Positions 2,937 through 15,807 of a stretch of DNA of 28,878 nucleotides are shown piece by piece. Position 1 is the stretch's first letter, and each line of letters starts with the position of its first letter. The stretch is from positions 1 to 28,878 of the IMG/VR virus record IMGVR_UViG_3300035156_000136; one strand, 5' to 3'. This DNA comes from a virus. Below the pieces are notes generated by a model. That model did not search any database and was not told where the DNA came from. It saw only the letters and a program-made list of their open reading frames with translations. The position numbers were made by a program, and so were the translations under genes.

Positions 2937-5900
2937 TATTCTGTAACCTCGCCAAAGCCAACCACCTCTTCAGCGACTTCTGGGTTGTTAAGTGTTTGCT
3001 GTGCTTCCAGGTTACGGTTAATATCTTCGATACGCTTGTTAACATCTGGTGGCACCGTGCTAAGTGTCATTATAGCTTGTTCTGGCGTATAGGTATGCTT
3101 TGCAATTTGGATGGCTAGGGTGCTAGGGTTATTAACGTCGAAATCCCAATAGCCTTCATCCCAAAACGCGGCATCCCAGTTGCTGGAGCTGTCAGAACTA
3201 CCACCGGCATTAGCAAAGCCGACGATATCGCCAGGGCGGATGGATTCAATGTCATAGACGCCATCTAATATAGTGATGTTAGCCCGAACCTCTGGCATCT
3301 TGTATTGTTCAATGATGGCATTAGCGATGGTGTCGGCTGTATCGGGGTTCGTAACGCGGTTATCTACGTAGATACGAAGCTTCTGACCGTACAAATCAAC
3401 ACTGCCGGTGTCCTTATATCTACGGTAGAGGTTAACGCCGTTGTCATCTACGCCGCCGGTGAACTCCACGGAGTTGATAATATTTTCTGACCTATCTTCA
3501 AAATTAACGCTTTGCAGGTGTTTACCGATAACGAACTTATGATTAACAGTCGTACCCTTTAGCTTGAAGTGAACCTTTTTAGTGGCGTGGTCGATATAGA
3601 AGAACCAGTTGGCCGGTGATAATTCCAGACATTTCTTAAGGGCGTCGTATACGCTGGATGATCGGAAGGTATAACTAACCTTGGTACCTGTTAATTCAAT
3701 TGAAGCATCATCGAAGGTAACACTGCCACCCTGCAAGCTGTAGTTAGTCAGGATGTCTTTTAAGATGACGCTAGGATCTTCGCTAAGGTATTTGGCCACA
3801 GTCGATCCGGTGTCGCTATATAGTTCACAGTAAAGGCCGCCGATTTGCGCCATCGTACTACCGGAGTTATTAATTGACACAGTATAGCCATAACCGCCGA
3901 CGATAGGCGGGTAACTCATGCCGTTAATAATATCGCCTGCAGCTGTTCCACCGCGGAGATAAAAGAACTCATCTGTATCGAAGGTAATCAGTACATAATA
4001 GCTTTGGCCAGCAGCAAGGATTTGTGTTGTATCAAAATCAAACTTAACAAGGTCCGGGTTGGTTTCCGGTACCGCTGCAGAATCAGTGAATGCTATGGCC
4101 GTATTGGAAGTGGTGTAGGAGAATGAACCGGCAGTCGTGCCCACTATGTCATTTACTGGCGTGCCGGAGTATAGCGTCAAGTTTTTCTCTTTAGGGAGAT
4201 TACCGGCTAACCGTGCCATCTTAAGTACTACTGATTTCAATCGAATATTAGATGTAGGCTTGATAACAACCGCATAAGCACTACCCCAAACACTAGTGTT
4301 GTAAGCACCATTATCAATCGGCATCGCGGTAAGCTGTGACTGCCCGCTTTGAACGGTATAGTTGCTTAGCTGTTCGCCGTAGCTATAGACTTCGATGTTT
4401 ACGCAATTCTTGTTGTAGTCTGGGATGTAATTGGCAATGTATCCGGTAAAGATGAGCTGCCCGTTAGGGAATTGATCGTCAGCACAGTAAAAGCGGACTT
4501 CCAAACCGAAATCAACATCAACGCGCTCGCCAAAACTACCAGGGTCGCGGGCAAGGGTGACTTTGACCTTTGATCCAGCGCTGTTAATCTCCTGTTCATA
4601 ACCAAATTCGCTGGAGATTTCCTTACTCCAAGTCTTACGGTAAGTATAAGTAGTGAAGGTACCGGTAAAGACGTTGGTGAGCGCGTTAAAAGCATAGACC
4701 GATGAGCCGGTGCTAGGGAAGGTGTCGTCGAAGTATTCGTACGGCGTAGCACCATTGTTCAGCGCCATCTTGTCCACATAGAAGGTTTTGACTGATGCGT
4801 TAGCGTTGCGAAGTAGTACGCGGAGCTGACCCACAGTAGCTGCAGGGTCTGTGGTACCGGTGACGGTAATGCGCTGCCATTGGCCTGTAGCAGTAAGTGT
4901 GGACTGTAGGCTGGCGCCAGCATCGGCTGCAAGGCTGATAGTGACTTGCTCGCCTGGGTCGGCCTTAAACCAAGCGCTACCGCTGTAAACGGTGTTTCCG
5001 GTAATCGGGATGAGCGTTAGGCTGTCAGTTTGCGGGCCCTGCAGCGTTAGGCCGCCAGTGCTTGTAACTGTTTTTATTGAGCGTTCTAAGTAGATACTAG
5101 CACTATCGACAAGCTGGCAATTACCCAAATATAGGCAAGTGTAAAGCGTCGTATTAGAAGCGGTGTCATAACCCAGGGTAAAACTACCGTCTTCATTCGT
5201 AGTGTTGATTGCATTGAAGTCAAAATGCAGCAAACAACCCGAACCAATCGGCATCTTGGTATCGTACATTTCCAGTAGTAATGCCGGGGTCAGTAGGCTG
5301 CCGTAGATGCTGAAGTAATCGAGAGTTCCAGCAGCGAATTTATCACGGACGCCGGTATTGTTATTGTAACGGGCGCCAAGGTACACGTTTAAATTACCGT
5401 AATCAGTAGTGTTACCGGCGATGCCATTATCGAACTGGGCGACCTGTACGCCATCTATATTAAGCTGGAGATATCGCCCATCACTACCAAAACTAATCTG
5501 ATGTTCCCCTGCAGTGATGGTGCTTAGATCTACTGAGGCCGACTTCATTACGTTACCCATGCTAAGACGGACGGTTAATTTACCGGTCGTGGTCAAATTC
5601 CTATCAAGGCTGAAGCCACTACCTGGCGAGCCGGTATCTTCATGCCATACCAGTACTTCTTGCGTTGCATTAGCCCAGTTTGGTTTGGTGTGCCGAATAA
5701 CTACCGTATAGGCGTTACTGATATTAACATCTGGTTCGCCAAACCCAGAACCAACCTGGCCCACCGACGGCATGATTATATAAGACGTTACGCCATCAAG
5801 TACTACGGCCTTCTTTTTTACCTGTGGATAAGCCTGGGCGCGGTTGCGACCTACGAACGTGGCGCTGCCATATGGGTCAATCGCGGCGATAAACGGCGCA

Positions 5901-5992: not shown

Positions 5993-6807
5993 TATAGCCA
6001 CCGTGGTACTTGAGTTGCTACAACCGTACCAGCACGGGCAGTGAAATCATCACGAATCTGCAATCCGTTTGCAAGGGTGCCGCCAACTACCGGCTTATAC
6101 ATCGAGAACATACCGTCGTAATCGACGCCGACTTCAGTGCCGTTCACCTTTACCGTGTAGTTATCGTTATCAATTTCAATGACGTCACCGGCTACGAACG
6201 CCCGCGATATGCTGATTACTTGGCCTGTATTGGTGTTCGTGAAGTAGATAGTATTGGTCGTGCTACCGGTAAAGCTGGTGAGCGTTAAGGTAGTCTTGAT
6301 AACCTGTTCTTTGGTGCTACCAAGGACATCGAAGGTATAGGTATCGGTCGTGTTGTTGTGGGCCACGCCGTTAATAAGGGTGGTCGTGGTGGTGTCGTAT
6401 CCCCATGGCCACAGGCAAAGCAACTGCAGCGAGTAGGAAACAGCAAATGGCGCTCCACCATCCTGAAAATCCAAGCCGCTGATGACTGCCACATAGCGAC
6501 GGGTCTTCAAGCCATCACTACCATGTTTGCCGATATCTAAATTCGCGCCATTGCCATCATTCTCGATAGCGGCTTTGAAGAGGTCAACACGGTTATTGAT
6601 ATCACCAAGGTTAGTACCCCAGATATCACCACTAATAGTTATAACTTTTTGGGTATAGTATTGGCCGGTCTTAATGCTACGGCTAGCACGCGGAATAGCA
6701 AAAACATTTAATGTCTTCGTTGGTATCGACTTGTGGGTAATCGCCGTAACGCTTATATTGTTAGTCTGTAGGTTGACTAAGTTATAAGTTACTGGTATAC
6801 CATCCAT
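5992..6807 (-). CDS. Distal tail protein (Dit-like)
   Basis: At 271 residues it lies between the tape measure and the hub genes, the standard Dit position. The N-terminal half has the siphovirus tail-component pattern: KTLNVFAIPRASRSIKTGQYYTQ, then KVITISGDIWG, and FKAAIENDG. That half would form the ring that caps the tail tube. The C-terminal half is a beta sandwich with Thr/Asn-rich strands (TNTIYFTNTNTGQVISI, IDNDNYTVKVNG), as in Dit galectin-like domains. It starts one base after the tape measure stop and ends in a TAATG overlap with the hub gene. It would join tube, tape measure and hub. Confidence 0.8.
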   Translation of the reverse strand: MDGIPVTYNLVNLQTNNISVTAITHKSIPTKTLNVFAIPRASRSIKTGQYYTQKVITISGDIWGTNLGDINNRVDLFKAAIENDGNGANLDIGKHGSDGLKTRRYVAVISGLDFQDGGAPFAVSYSLQLLCLWPWGYDTTTTTLINGVAHNNTTDTYTFDVLGSTKEQVIKTTLTLTSFTGSTTNTIYFTNTNTGQVISISRAFVAGDVIEIDNDNYTVKVNGTEVGVDYDGMFSMYKPVVGGTLANGLQIRDDFTARAGTVVATQVPRWL

Positions 6808-6808
6808 T

Positions 6809-8788
6809 TTAGAAACCGCCCACTAAGATTTTATTTGTTGTTATGCCCTTAGAAGCTAAGCCATTGTTTTCATCATGTTGCGCAAAGTATGCAGCAACCG
6901 CACTGGAATCACCAAGGTATACATCGCCGTAGTGATTGAACTCGCGCTTACTACCACCACCTGATTCGCTATCGTTATTATTGAACATCGCGTTTGTTTT
7001 ACCGCCTGGGATAATAGTACCAGATTGATTAGGTACAAATAGTTCTGACGTTGGATTTAATGAGCCATCAGGGTTATCACCAACGATATATGGCTGACCG
7101 GCTTTAACGGGGCCACCCTTAGCGCGCTTAAGTAATGGCGACAGGTCGATCTTAGTACCGCCAGCGGTCTTGGTCTGGACCTTTTCAACAAGCTTGTTAA
7201 TACTGACAACCGCACCATCTGCTGAACGCTTAACGCCATCAATTTCACGACTAGTAGTCTGCATGGTTCGAATAAGCGCTTGTTCCTTGGCAACTTCTTT
7301 TTGCTTATCCCAGAATCTTTGTTGGCTATCCTTGGTCTGGTCTTGAGCGGTTTTAAGGTTTTGCTGTGCTACCTGTAAGTTGTAAAGCGCTTGGCGAGCC
7401 TCTAGAGAGTTTGGCCCGAATCGCTTAACGGCTTCGTTATAACTTTTTTGTGCTTGTTCGACGTTCAAGGATGCACCGACCTGGGCCAACTGAGCGTCTT
7501 TAAGCGTCTGCTGTGATACCCGCATCTCATCGGTCTTCTGTTTTAAGTTAGCCTGAGCCAACGCTAGCTGCTCTGAGGCGGTTTTCTGGTTCATAATGCC
7601 ATAAGTTACCGCCGCGACTACGCCAACGACTGCAGCGCCTCCTAATACCCAAGGATTGGTCAGCGCCGGGCCAAACTTCTCAAGCAAAGGAAGCGCACTT
7701 GATAGGTTGCCCAGGAATCCAGTCAACGCCGATGTACCGGTAAGCACTGGGCCGCCAAAGGCCAAAGCGTTGGCAATGATTCCTTTAAACGGCGAATCGG
7801 TCGCAATCAATCGCATGGCCACCGAGTTTAGCCGCTCTTGGAAGGCAGCAAGAACTGGCATAGTTAATGAACCGACCGCCAGCTTGAGTGCATCAGTCTG
7901 ATCCTTCATGTCCTTTTGGGCTTTAACGTATTTGGCGACATCGGCAACGTTCTTAGAAGATAATGTCAGGCCAAGTTTTTGGGCTTGAAGTTCCATATCC
8001 TTGATGCCATCTGATCCAAGGTTTAGGGTTTTGATAAGGTCTTTGCCCTTTTTGCCAAACAGTTCCATCGACAGTGCGGTCTTTTCAGAACCATCCTTCA
8101 TGCCCTTGAACCGGTCAGCTATGTCCATTAAGACATCGTTGAAGTTACGGGTTTCACCGGATGAAGTCTTAGTAGCAACGCCAAGCTTCTCCAGTGGTGT
8201 CTTCGCATTAGTAAGCTGGTCGGTGTAATCCTTGATGGATATCTTAAGCCCTTCAACCTTGTTTCTCAGCTCGCCAGAACTATCGCCGTTCTTTTTAATA
8301 TCGGCGGTGTAGTCCTTGATTTTGATTTGCGCCTCTTCAATCTTGTTCTTGATTTCAGCTTGCTTCTTTGACAGGTCGCCAGTGGCATCGTTGGTAGCAA
8401 CGATTTGTTTGGATAATACGCCGAAGGCAGCACTAGTATCTTGAGTAGTGAGGCCCATCTTCTTGGTAACGGCCAGTAGCAGTGATGTGCTTTCGGTCGT
8501 CATGCCCGTTTGTCTTGCTAATATCGAAGTATCTTTAACCAGGCTAACAACATAATCGGTCGCGTTCTTAGCATAAAGGGTTACACCAGCGGCTAGAACA
8601 CCGGTAACTACCGATACTTTCTTGAACCCAGCTTCGCTCTTTTTAGCGAACTCCGTGAATCGCCCACCCGCTTCATCGGTCGCATTGCCGATTGCTTCGA
8701 TGCCTTTTTTGGCCTCAGTAAAGCCCGATCCTTCGGACTTATTTGAGATGATGACATCGACGTTGTTGTTACTGCCTAGTAGACTCAT
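6809..8788 (-). CDS. Tail tape measure protein
   Basis: A 659-residue protein with the hallmarks of tape measures. The N-terminal core includes LARQTGMTTESTSLLL and SMELFGKKGKDLI, as in TP901-1-type tape measures. A Lys/Glu-rich coiled coil (~138-195) is inserted in that core. A membrane-like segment lies at ~380-399 (WVLGGAAVVGVVAAVTYGIM), a second coiled coil at ~400-500, and a Gly/Asn-rich C-terminus follows. Using the known rule of about 0.15 nm per residue, the tail would be near 100 nm. The ATG overlaps the end of the frameshifted chaperone frame by 20 bases, and there is only a weak ribosome site, so coupling is likely. Confidence 0.9.
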   Translation of the reverse strand: MSLLGSNNNVDVIISNKSEGSGFTEAKKGIEAIGNATDEAGGRFTEFAKKSEAGFKKVSVVTGVLAAGVTLYAKNATDYVVSLVKDTSILARQTGMTTESTSLLLAVTKKMGLTTQDTSAAFGVLSKQIVATNDATGDLSKKQAEIKNKIEEAQIKIKDYTADIKKNGDSSGELRNKVEGLKISIKDYTDQLTNAKTPLEKLGVATKTSSGETRNFNDVLMDIADRFKGMKDGSEKTALSMELFGKKGKDLIKTLNLGSDGIKDMELQAQKLGLTLSSKNVADVAKYVKAQKDMKDQTDALKLAVGSLTMPVLAAFQERLNSVAMRLIATDSPFKGIIANALAFGGPVLTGTSALTGFLGNLSSALPLLEKFGPALTNPWVLGGAAVVGVVAAVTYGIMNQKTASEQLALAQANLKQKTDEMRVSQQTLKDAQLAQVGASLNVEQAQKSYNEAVKRFGPNSLEARQALYNLQVAQQNLKTAQDQTKDSQQRFWDKQKEVAKEQALIRTMQTTSREIDGVKRSADGAVVSINKLVEKVQTKTAGGTKIDLSPLLKRAKGGPVKAGQPYIVGDNPDGSLNPTSELFVPNQSGTIIPGGKTNAMFNNNDSESGGGSKREFNHYGDVYLGDSSAVAAYFAQHDENNGLASKGITTNKILVGGF

Positions 8789-9343
8789 TTTTTTGTGCTG
8801 CTTCCGCTTCTAGTCTCTGTACTTCTAGTTCTAAGTTACTGATTTGAATGAATCTGTTTATATGGCTAAGCTCTGTATTCTGAAATTCCAGAAATGTCGC
8901 CCCTGTCAACTGCCTCCAGCGCTTGAATAGCTGGAATGTTACATAACCGGTGGGGAGTAGTCCGGGGTCAGGTTTGGTGTTACCGCCTCTGTGGAAGCGG
9001 TAGAAGTTTTTTTTTCCTCCGCACTCAGACCCCCTTGCGCCTCTTCGATCTGATCGCGGCTTATATCTTTTAGATAGTTGAAATCAGTGGCATCCATCCG
9101 CAAGATATTGTCATAGGTTATGGCAGCCTTGCTACCATCAGCTTCGGTGAAGCTCCAATCAAGTATCGTTGCAGATAAACCTGCAGCGACTTGTTCGGTG
9201 ATAGTGTCGTATTCATACATCACTTCAAGGTCGCGGGCAAAAACAACAGACCGTAGTTCAACCCAGTCCTGTTCAGCTTCCGGTAGATGCTTACTAGATG
9301 GAAGGGTGAATCGTTTGCTTTTGTAAGTTCCAAGTTGCGACAT
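8769..9343 (-). CDS. Tail assembly chaperone, frameshifted long form (G-T type)
   Basis: A -1 shift on the A run at 9008-9014 joins the first 112 codons of the short chaperone to 79 further codons, ending at a TAA at 8769. The product is about 191 residues. I translated the extension by hand. It begins NFYRFHRGG, contains YVTFQLFKRWRQLTG and FLEFQNTELSHI, and ends in a Glu-rich helix. That composition is coding-like, with no stop over the whole stretch up to the tape measure start. Long-tailed phages commonly make the G and G-T chaperones this way, to coat the tape measure during tail assembly. The extension frame has no evident start of its own. Confidence 0.82.
8939..9343 (-). CDS. Tail assembly chaperone, short form (G type)
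   Basis: A 134-residue acidic protein between the tail tube and tape measure genes. It begins MSQLGTYKSKRFTLPSSKHL and carries an aligned core (DWVELRSVVFARDLEV, ITYDNILRMDATDFNYL) typical of tail chaperones. The last 22 residues after the slippery Lys-Lys are Pro/Thr-rich (TSTASTEAVTPNLTPDYSPP) and look like an unstructured read-on. This is what the unshifted product of a G/G-T pair usually looks like. The ribosome site is weak, and the start lies eight bases after the tail tube stop, so coupled translation is likely. Confidence 0.8.
   Translation of the reverse strand: MSQLGTYKSKRFTLPSSKHLPEAEQDWVELRSVVFARDLEVMYEYDTITEQVAAGLSATILDWSFTEADGSKAAITYDNILRMDATDFNYLKDISRDQIEEAQGGLSAEEKKTSTASTEAVTPNLTPDYSPPVM
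9008..9014 (-). promoter_or_regulatory. -1 ribosomal frameshift slippery site
   Basis: The minus strand reads GAG GAA AAA AAA ACT in the chaperone frame, within an unbroken run of nine A (9007-9015). The heptamer A AAA AAA fits the X XXY YYZ rule for tandem -1 slippage. The shifted frame stays open for 79 codons. A GGAG just upstream of the A run (9017-9020) could act as an internal Shine-Dalgarno stimulator. I did not find a convincing downstream pseudoknot by eye. Confidence 0.82.
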
Positions 9344-12768: not shown

Positions 12769-15700
12769 TTATAGGTAAATATCCCTATTATCATCGGTTG
12801 GAATTGCTTTGACATCATCGTTTCCGATCACAATTGAAGTATTATCATCCACCAGTATGGCAACGCCGGTGATATCCAGTTGGCCAAGGATGGTATCGGT
12901 AGGCTGGTTGCCAATGATTATCTCATCGGTTTTACCCGGTTTGACAAAGGTAATGCGGGCGGTAGCTTCCTGGGTAAAGGTGAGTAGCTTGGCGATGCGG
13001 GCAGTGGCCGATTGGGTAAAGGTGCCAGTTGCACTAACCCGGCCTGTCGCTGGTTGTACCTTAGTGAATGTTTTGCTAACACGTGCGGTGCTGGTTTGCG
13101 AACGGGTAAGGTTTTTGGTAACTCTACCGACTGCCGTTTGCGTCTTGGTGACAACCTTGTTAATGCGTACCGTTGCCAGCTGTGCATAAGTGATTGATTT
13201 GGTTATCCTAGCCGTGGCAGTCTGGGTTAAGGTGTAAGCTTTACTGATTCGGGCGATAGCAGGTTGTGACGAAGTTAGGTTCTTGGTTATTCGGGCGGTG
13301 GCTAGCCTGCTGGTGGCGCGGCCTTTTAGAATCCGACCAACCGCTAACTGAGTAAAGACGCTTTGAATCGTAATGTTTGCCGTGGCCGTTTGCGTCCTAG
13401 TGAAGCTACGAGCGACGCGGGCAATAGCGGGCTGGGTTCGGGTGAATGACTTAGCTATCCGACCTGCAGCCGTTTGCGATAACGTCATCGACTTGGTAAC
13501 GCGACCTGTGGATAACTGGGTTCGGGTTCCAATGATACTAATGCGGGCGGCAGCCAATTGAGTAATCGACATAGTAGCCGGGTTAATCTTAGCGGTTGCC
13601 GACTGGGTTTTAGTGAAACTCTTGGCAATCCTACCGGCCGCCAGCTGGGTTAAGGTCAATGATTTGGTAATACGGCTGGTGGTAGTCTGGGTTCGGGTTT
13701 GTGCCTTCGATATGCGGGCGGTAGAGGTCTGGTTTAGCGTGAAGTCCTTGGTGACACGGGCAGCCGCGGGTTGTGTCTTAGTAAATGACTTTTGCAAACG
13801 GGCAATAGCTACCTGTGGATAAATCAGGGTTCTGGTGATTCGGGATGTAGCGCCCTGAGTGAAGAGGCGCGATAGCTGAATCCTAGCAGTGGATGTTTGG
13901 GTAAACGTGCGGCTACTTTGAACCCTGGCAACGGCTGGTTGTGTCTTGGTAATCGCTTTTGTAATGCGAGTAGCCGCTATCTGTGACAGGGTGAATGCTT
14001 TGCTGATCCGACCGGCTGCTAATTGTGTCTTGGTGACAGTAAAGCTTAGCGCCTCTTGCGCGGAAGGAGCGTAAAAGGTTGCCGGGCTATTCTGGTTGTT
14101 GTATTCGGTGGCAATCCAGTTATCGCTACGATCGCCCGTGCTAGTGCGGATTTCGTCTAACGTACCGCTGTAGTTATACCCAGCTGTACCCCATGAACCA
14201 AAGTATAGTGGGGCGCCGCCAGTAGCCGTTGCATCGCCTGATAAGGTGCCGCTATTAACTAGAACGCCGTCAACAAACAGCTTGGCATTACCTGAACCAT
14301 CACGCTTTGCGACGATGTAATGCTGGGCCCCATCACAGACCGATGCGGGTGATTCAAGGGTGGTGCTATTAATCCAGAACGTCGCTTTGGTGGCGTTGGT
14401 CTGTAGCGTCCAGCCATTAGTGATGCCAGCATTAATATGCCCGAACAAACCAGGGAATGCAGCATTTTGCGACGATGACATCCAGGTGGATATGGTGAAT
14501 GCACCAGTGAAGTCGTTGGCGGTATCGTTGGCAGGCGTTGCGATAACCTGGCCACCGGCAAATGTGGCGCCTTTACCTATCTTGGTAGTAGACCCATAAG
14601 CTGGACCGGTGCCGACGACGTTATTACTGACAGTCCTAGCAGCGGCCGTGCTATCTACGAACCCACCAGATGCATCATTCATGTGGTAGACGTTCTTATA
14701 GTTGGCATCCCAAACGTTCTGACTACCATAGGTAGAGTTAGCGGCCAGCAAGGTACTAGATGGCGCGCCGTAATAAATGTAGAACTTGGTATTAGTCAGG
14801 TTGGCTAAGCTTGGCGCCTTGAACCATAGTTCACCAGTGCCGCCTACCTTATCGACTGCAACCAGTTCAAAAGGCACCTGGGTCGTGCCATCACCAGTGG
14901 TAACGCGGATATCACCGCCGTCGCTACGGATATTGGTAAAGAATCCGGTGGCTAGATTGGCTAGGTTAACGTGTACAGGGAAATTGGTATGCGAACCGAT
15001 GACTTTGGTGCCATCTACGGTAATCTTTTGGCGGTAACTATAGCCTGCAAGTACACCTGGTGGCGTTTCGATGTTCGCCGTGGCAGTCTGGGCTTTGGTC
15101 AGGGCCTTGGTAATACGACCGGTAGCGGGCTGAGTTTTGGTAGGAGTGATAACCGGGATGGAGTTAACGGCGGTAATCTTGCTACCATTTTGGCCTATTA
15201 GCTGAGCGTATACGTCGCCCTGTACACCTATTGCGTTAGGGTCGGTGTATACAACGCTCCAGGAAACGCCATCGGGTGAATATTCAAAGAAGATGGTGCC
15301 GGATACATCGCGGATTCGTAACCATTTAGCTTGAGAGGCAGCAAGGAGTATATTGGCGGCCATGAATGCATCACTAAAGTCGCTGTAGTAAACGAACATG
15401 CGGCCTTGCGCCTGATCGTAAGTAAATTGATACTGAGCAAGATTAGCTAAATCACTACCAATGGTAAGACCGAAAACACCGGTAAGCGTTTCGTTGACTA
15501 TATAGATTTGGCTGTTTCGTATCTGATATACAGGATAAGAAGCAACTGAGGTAGTTGCATTGAAGTTCAATAAGCCACCGCTAACACTAACGTTGGCATT
15601 GGCAACCCACTTGGCCGAATCTAAGGCGACGCCATCAAAGCTATCGACCAATTGGCTGATAGGTAGCGTTATCCTAGCCGTGGCGGTACGGCTGGCAGTA

Positions 15701-15807
15701 AAGTTTTTAGTAACCCTGGCCGTAGCGGTCTGGGTTTTAGTGACGATACCACCATCACTAGCCTGGGTAAGCGCTAGCAGCAGGCCAAGAGGTTCACCAG
15801 CAGCCAT
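12769..15807 (-). CDS. Large repeat protein with LamG/DUF2341 domains (head fibre or decoration candidate)
   Basis: A 1012-residue protein. Order: residues 1-22 leader; two 14-residue repeats (23-50); a jelly roll with DSFDGVALDSAKW and SPDGVSWSVVY (~52-220); two more repeats (223-250); a DUF2341-like domain (~255-345, GYSYRQKITVDG, FPVHVNLA, FYIYYGAP); a LamG domain (~345-580, FTGAFTISTWM, NAKLFVDGVLV, NWIATEYNNQNSP); 26 tandem 14-residue repeats (592-956, consensus TKTQTATARITKSF); and a 56-residue Asp/Ile-rich end (TDTILGQLDITG). The repeats are basic. LamG and DUF2341 pairs are known glycan-binding modules on surface proteins. Its place between capsid and neck genes suggests a virion surface fibre. 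Its start shares one base with the stop of a mini-ORF. Function is inferred only. Confidence 0.7.
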   Translation of the reverse strand: MAAGEPLGLLLALTQASDGGIVTKTQTATARVTKNFTASRTATARITLPISQLVDSFDGVALDSAKWVANANVSVSGGLLNFNATTSVASYPVYQIRNSQIYIVNETLTGVFGLTIGSDLANLAQYQFTYDQAQGRMFVYYSDFSDAFMAANILLAASQAKWLRIRDVSGTIFFEYSPDGVSWSVVYTDPNAIGVQGDVYAQLIGQNGSKITAVNSIPVITPTKTQPATGRITKALTKAQTATANIETPPGVLAGYSYRQKITVDGTKVIGSHTNFPVHVNLANLATGFFTNIRSDGGDIRVTTGDGTTQVPFELVAVDKVGGTGELWFKAPSLANLTNTKFYIYYGAPSSTLLAANSTYGSQNVWDANYKNVYHMNDASGGFVDSTAAARTVSNNVVGTGPAYGSTTKIGKGATFAGGQVIATPANDTANDFTGAFTISTWMSSSQNAAFPGLFGHINAGITNGWTLQTNATKATFWINSTTLESPASVCDGAQHYIVAKRDGSGNAKLFVDGVLVNSGTLSGDATATGGAPLYFGSWGTAGYNYSGTLDEIRTSTGDRSDNWIATEYNNQNSPATFYAPSAQEALSFTVTKTQLAAGRISKAFTLSQIAATRITKAITKTQPAVARVQSSRTFTQTSTARIQLSRLFTQGATSRITRTLIYPQVAIARLQKSFTKTQPAAARVTKDFTLNQTSTARISKAQTRTQTTTSRITKSLTLTQLAAGRIAKSFTKTQSATAKINPATMSITQLAAARISIIGTRTQLSTGRVTKSMTLSQTAAGRIAKSFTRTQPAIARVARSFTRTQTATANITIQSVFTQLAVGRILKGRATSRLATARITKNLTSSQPAIARISKAYTLTQTATARITKSITYAQLATVRINKVVTKTQTAVGRVTKNLTRSQTSTARVSKTFTKVQPATGRVSATGTFTQSATARIAKLLTFTQEATARITFVKPGKTDEIIIGNQPTDTILGQLDITGVAILVDDNTSIVIGNDDVKAIPTDDNRDIYL
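12940..14034 (-). repeat. 26 tandem 42-bp (14-codon) repeats
   Basis: I count 26 imperfect units, one of them with an extra codon, each encoding a variant of T-x-T-Q-x-A-x-A/G-R-I/V-x-K-x-x. Thr1, Gln4, Ala6, Arg9 and the hydrophobic residue 10 are best kept. Four further units lie apart in the N-terminal quarter of the same protein. Units differ from each other at many positions, so the array is old rather than freshly amplified. The alternation of small polar and hydrophobic residues would suit stacked beta turns, but that is inference. Confidence 0.9.

Follow-up and report, generated by a model that had tools for sequence, protein, structure and literature searches.

Probable −1 ribosomal frameshifting in the putative G/GT tail chaperone gene of phages without annotation

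Introduction

How is the DNA between a small tail gene and the tape-measure gene read in the phage analysed here? The window, that is, the whole stretch of DNA that was analysed, comprises 28,878 bases and is a virus record from IMG/VR. Between the stop codon of the small gene, G (8939), and the start of the tape-measure gene (8788), 150 bases are left without a zero-frame gene, unless a second frame, T, is used. The first-pass annotation had described this stretch as otherwise empty and had proposed that T is a hidden −1 frameshift product of the tail chaperone. Its description holds, and its coordinates and counts for the nine A's before T, the 79-codon frame, and the 20-base overlap of T with the tape-measure gene are correct.

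In phage lambda, the tape measure is bound by G and the tube protein by the T part of GT; the ratio, about 30:1, is important (PMC5009743). The tail chaperone frameshifts that were assayed with reporters reached 6–7% (PMC3711429). Here, we compare the window with its relatives and weigh the routes by which T could be translated.

Organization of the locus

The window encodes a tailed-phage module composed of portal, major head protein, terminase-like protein, neck, tape measure, and distal tail. The main genes are all on the minus strand, and the gene order is tube–G–T–tape measure (Table 1). The translation of the −1 frame runs from NFYRFHRGG to NESTRQ and closes at a TAA (8771..8769) inside the tape-measure ORF, which starts at ATG 8788. 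A family search with the tail tube candidate gave no match.

Upstream of the head–tail connector genes, positions 12769..15807 of the minus strand encode a 1012-aa protein with a Laminin_G_3 (concanavalin A-like) domain and DUF2341. This protein is perhaps a virion decoration or adhesion protein.

Table 1 Features of the G/T locus in the window.
Feature	Coordinates	Strand	Remark
Tape measure protein, 659 aa	6809..8788	−	phrog_8462 tail length tape measure protein, E=1.9e-24
T frame (−1), 79 codons + TAA	8769..9008	−	Putative C-terminal extension of the GT product
Gene G, zero-frame product of 134 aa, predicted short tail assembly chaperone	8939..9343	−	ATG 9343, TAA 8941..8939
9-bp hairpin UACCGCUUC-CACA-GAGGCGGUA	8981..9002	−	Candidate 3′ stimulator, 5 nt after the heptamer
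A9 run	9007..9015	−	Inside gene G
Slippery heptamer A AAA AAA, G frame (Lys-Lys)	9008..9014	−	
GGAGG	9016..9020	−	Stimulator proposed by the first-pass annotation, 1 nt before the heptamer
Anti-SD complement AAGGGGGU (AAGGGGGT)	9029..9036	−	Candidate 5′ stimulator, spaced 14 nt from the heptamer
Tail tube (major tail) protein candidate, 393 aa	9352..10533	−	Assigned by position

The A run in the window

The zero-frame codons across the A run are GAG GAA AAA AAA ACT, and a heptamer of the X XXY YYZ type lies in the zero frame. The A AAA AAA register, to which the first-pass annotation had pointed, is present at 9014..9008. However, it carries no evidential weight, because A AAA AAA is bound to occur in phase in any stretch of nine A's. 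The run itself is unremarkable as well: 0.92 A9 runs are expected by chance in the window when both strands are counted (shuffles), and at least one is found in 47 of 100 shuffles. We therefore reject the run and its register as stand-alone evidence and turn to the comparison with relatives.

Relatives of the window

Direct searches of IMG/VR with G, T, and the tube protein singly found nothing, nor did direct searches of 50,697 phage records with G and the tube protein. A terminase search led to four IMG/VR contigs. The tube is encoded on two of them, with identities of 57% and 41%. A search with a tube alignment then gave overlapping sets of loci (17 and 19). A tape-measure search among the first relatives was unsuccessful. 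The adjacent tube gene, used as a handle, is thus a way to find frameshift products in unnamed families. In a prophage scan, the tube alignment returned none and the terminase returned one MAG contig.

This contig, JAGXRF010000063.1 (L046–L049), is 46.7 kb long and is binned in a Flavobacteriales MAG. It encodes a related phage, at 64% for the terminase and 46% for the tube, in which A9 and a T frame in −1 are again present. The contig hints at Flavobacteriales as a possible host, although the binning may be wrong.

Conservation of the slip site

A homologue of G is located behind the tube gene in each phage, with the consensus I.LPS...AWV...I..WN.T..DG...PI...L...D and usually the end EEKK. 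The order tube candidate–G–tape measure is kept in the relatives, and a second frame extends to the tape measure in each phage. In 19 of 21 independent split-frame phages (the window counted), an in-phase slippery heptamer leads into a homologous −1 T frame. The heptamer is A AAA AAA in 16 phages, C CCA AAA in two (L019 and L037), and T TTA AAA in one (L011). Four phages (L033, L034, L037, and L047) were collected after the heptamer rule had been formulated, and all four obey it; L045, from the same batch, breaks it. The first-pass annotation had named a kept A run and a conserved T frame in related phages as the comparison that bears on its proposal, and the 18 further phages with a homologous −1 T frame after an in-phase heptamer bear that proposal out.

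Sites of the KK type are spelt AAA AAA in all 15 checked. AAA accounts for 24–81% of the Lys codons in these loci, and log10 P for the uniform spelling, calculated from Lys codon usage and ignoring kinship, is about −9.6. Elsewhere, an in-phase A AAA AAA occurs 0 times in 45,106 codons (ORFs of at least 150 aa from 15 of these loci).

Candidate stimulators

SD-like sequences stimulate −1 shifts at a spacing of 9–14 nt and +1 shifts at a spacing of 3 nt (PMC5009743). Two candidate stimulators in the window, both overlooked by the first-pass annotation, are at known spacings (Table 1). The pairing energy of AAGGGGGU (9036..9029) with the anti-SD is −11.1 kcal/mol, which exceeds that of every background stretch of G sampled, and the match is stronger than that of the GGAG which had been proposed before. 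The hairpin (9002..8981) has a folding energy of −13.6 kcal/mol (z=−2.94), equalled in about 3% of 45-nt windows of the same strand. The GGAG next to the slip site is rejected as an SD stimulator, because it is only 1 nt away and the known range for −1 shifts is 9–14 nt (PMC5009743). In addition, GGAGG is partly dictated by the conserved Glu-Glu codons that precede the A run.

When looked for in the relatives, a stable downstream hairpin is absent from L019 and L020, and an SD-like site is absent from several loci. The hairpin varies among relatives and is rejected as a conserved feature of the family. Because the hairpin and the SD-like site both vary, we only infer their role in the shift.

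Place of the slip

Taken together, the locus very probably encodes a tail assembly chaperone of the lambda G/GT type, with −1 ribosomal frameshifting as the source of GT. Most ribosomes would end G at the stop codon 8941..8939 and release the 134-aa short chaperone. A minority would slip back one base on A AAA AAA (9014..9008). The upstream AAGGGGGU (14 nt away), through mRNA–rRNA pairing, and the downstream 9-bp hairpin (5 nt away) would probably aid this step. The slipped ribosomes would read the 79 T codons and stop inside the tape-measure gene, giving a GT protein of 191 aa (112 + 79). By analogy with lambda, G would coat the tape measure and T would recruit tail-tube subunits.

The same GT protein would result if the slip occurred during transcription, with RNA polymerase adding an A (A10) in some transcripts and ordinary translation entering T. 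Bacterial RNA polymerases slip on 9-A runs (PMC5009743; Thermus dnaX, PMC3711429), and among the 18 phages tabulated, including the window, the run is A9 in 12 and A8 in three. Moreover, T is in the +1/−2 frame behind A8 and A9 in L021 (about 6450–6800) and L045 (about 4680–4940), an arrangement that slippage of either sign permits; the frame in these two loci may stem from polymerase slippage, from a shift by −2 or +1, or from a homopolymer assembly error of one base. However, only A4 remains in the three relatives with C CCA AAA or T TTA AAA, where two-tRNA slippage is needed, and the window has a correctly spaced SD-like site and a hairpin. The A4 heptamers and the spaced stimulators favour the ribosome as the site of the slip, and transcriptional slippage is an unlikely source of GT.

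T as a protein domain

The T profile built without the window has a single significant match among 574 six-frame segments. The match is in the −1 frame (E=5.6e-9; next, 0.17). Likewise, the leave-one-out G profile matches G with E=2.8e-22, its only significant match in the window. For T, pN and pS are 0.28 and 0.91 in the close pair L013/L015 and 0.29 and 0.91 in the close pair L019/L037, which show that T is under purifying selection in close pairs. T is a conserved protein-coding domain, and the leave-one-out profile and the selection on T lend further weight to the core of the first-pass proposal, as does the natural in-frame G–T fusion described below.

A conserved T could also be a separate gene, translated without a frameshift by reinitiation or coupling near the G stop. 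Coupling is common among phage genes, and T extends beyond the G stop and abuts the tape measure. However, T of the window contains no ATG or GTG. Independent initiation is unlikely because T offers no start codon other than a TTG, at codon 33, past the start of the conserved core, and most relatives also lack an early start. Furthermore, the homology of T starts exactly at the slip codons, and in L012 T is fused to G. A separate T gene is therefore highly improbable.

Fused G–T relatives

In L012 and L014, G and T are fused in one continuous frame of 158 aa (L012:6188-6988). The fusion of L012 matches both profiles (hhalign probability 98.5–98.9%). A second, separate G follows the fusion in both phages, and its EEKK is kept as GAG GAG AAG AAG, without an A run (spelling tabulated for L012). 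The A run is therefore missing where the shift can be dispensed with. The first-pass annotation had held that a broken T frame or loss of the A run in related phages that still make tails would refute its reading. Loss of the run does occur, but the three relatives have C CCA AAA or T TTA AAA and L012/L014 have the in-frame fusion. Because the run is replaced by other heptamers or by a fusion, its loss strengthens the frameshift reading.

A homopolymer error in assembly or sequencing, by which the true gene would have A10 and one continuous G–T frame, is scarcely credible. Metagenome contigs can carry such errors, and a continuous GT frame is possible, as seen in L012/L014. However, 19 independent contigs share the split, and three of these have no long homopolymer. 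In many relatives the zero frame closes within a few codons, and the fused relative has an extra, separate G.

Ribosomal frameshifting remains the preferred reading for the window, and across the homologous family the G/GT pair may be obtained by interchangeable routes: a −1 slip on A8–A9, the same −1 shift at C CCA AAA or T TTA AAA, a +1/−2 shift (L021, L045), or an in-frame GT with a separate G and the slip site lost (L012/L014). We put this forward tentatively, as somewhat short of an even chance. If it is true, having both proteins is what is selected, not the frameshift itself, and the family is a natural experiment. L012/L014, with fusion and duplication in place of the shift, offer a direct test of why tailed phages keep the frameshift.

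Proposed identity of the chaperone

Neither G nor T of the window itself matches a Pfam, PHROG, or NCBIfam family. In the relatives, T of one phage matches phrog_9001, tail assembly chaperone (E=4e-4), and G of one phage weakly matches phrog_313. The AF2 model of G has a pLDDT of 88.6. A Foldseek search of BFVD with the predicted fold gave named tail assembly chaperones as matches, with a probability of 1.00 and E of about 4e-4 to 5e-4. Among chaperones of Bacillus phages, those of Gemini (M1I8W5) and 019DV002 (A0A5J6T714) share the predicted fold of G with a Foldseek probability of 1.00, but are only 16–18% identical to G. A search of the PDB with the G fold gave no significant match (best 3klu, YqbN, E=1.5). 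T is predicted to be helical, and its fold search gave no significant match. The assignment as a putative chaperone is based on synteny, the predicted fold, and the weak matches of relatives.

Comparison with known systems

As in lambda gpG/gpGT, the gene order in the window is tube–G–T–tape measure, T is in the −1 frame near the end of G and overlaps or abuts the tape measure, and a small G domain is followed by a T domain. The heptamer of lambda G/GT is GGGAAAG, whereas here it is mainly A AAA AAA, and some relatives have C CCA AAA or T TTA AAA instead. In contrast to the shared layout, no sequence similarity to lambda gpG/gpGT is detectable in the libraries searched.

The HK97-like GeneTack cluster also has a conserved frameshift site in a tail chaperone gene, with an efficiency of 6–7% measured in that cluster (PMC3711429). 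However, the cluster is defined by similarity to HK97, and the window family has no such similarity in the searches made.

The −1 cassette of E. coli dnaX resembles the window in its A-rich heptamer, upstream SD-like stimulator, and simple downstream stem loop. In dnaX, however, the slip occurs on A AAA AAG with a frequency of about 50% and yields a shorter product, whereas the shift in the window would yield a longer one. The SD spacing in the window, 14 nt, is at the edge of the 9–14 nt range, unlike in dnaX.

The trick is a known one, and the window is an ordinary but firmly established case of it, in a protein family that is unnamed in the public libraries searched. The gene model of an unannotated phage group is corrected, for G, T, and a tube candidate without a Pfam or PHROG match.

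In two relatives, an additional ORF lies between the tube gene and G. In L023 (6376-7057), it is an HNH-like endonuclease ORF, as judged by eye from the translation. In L016 (6175-6445), it is a small ORF that resembles a membrane protein.
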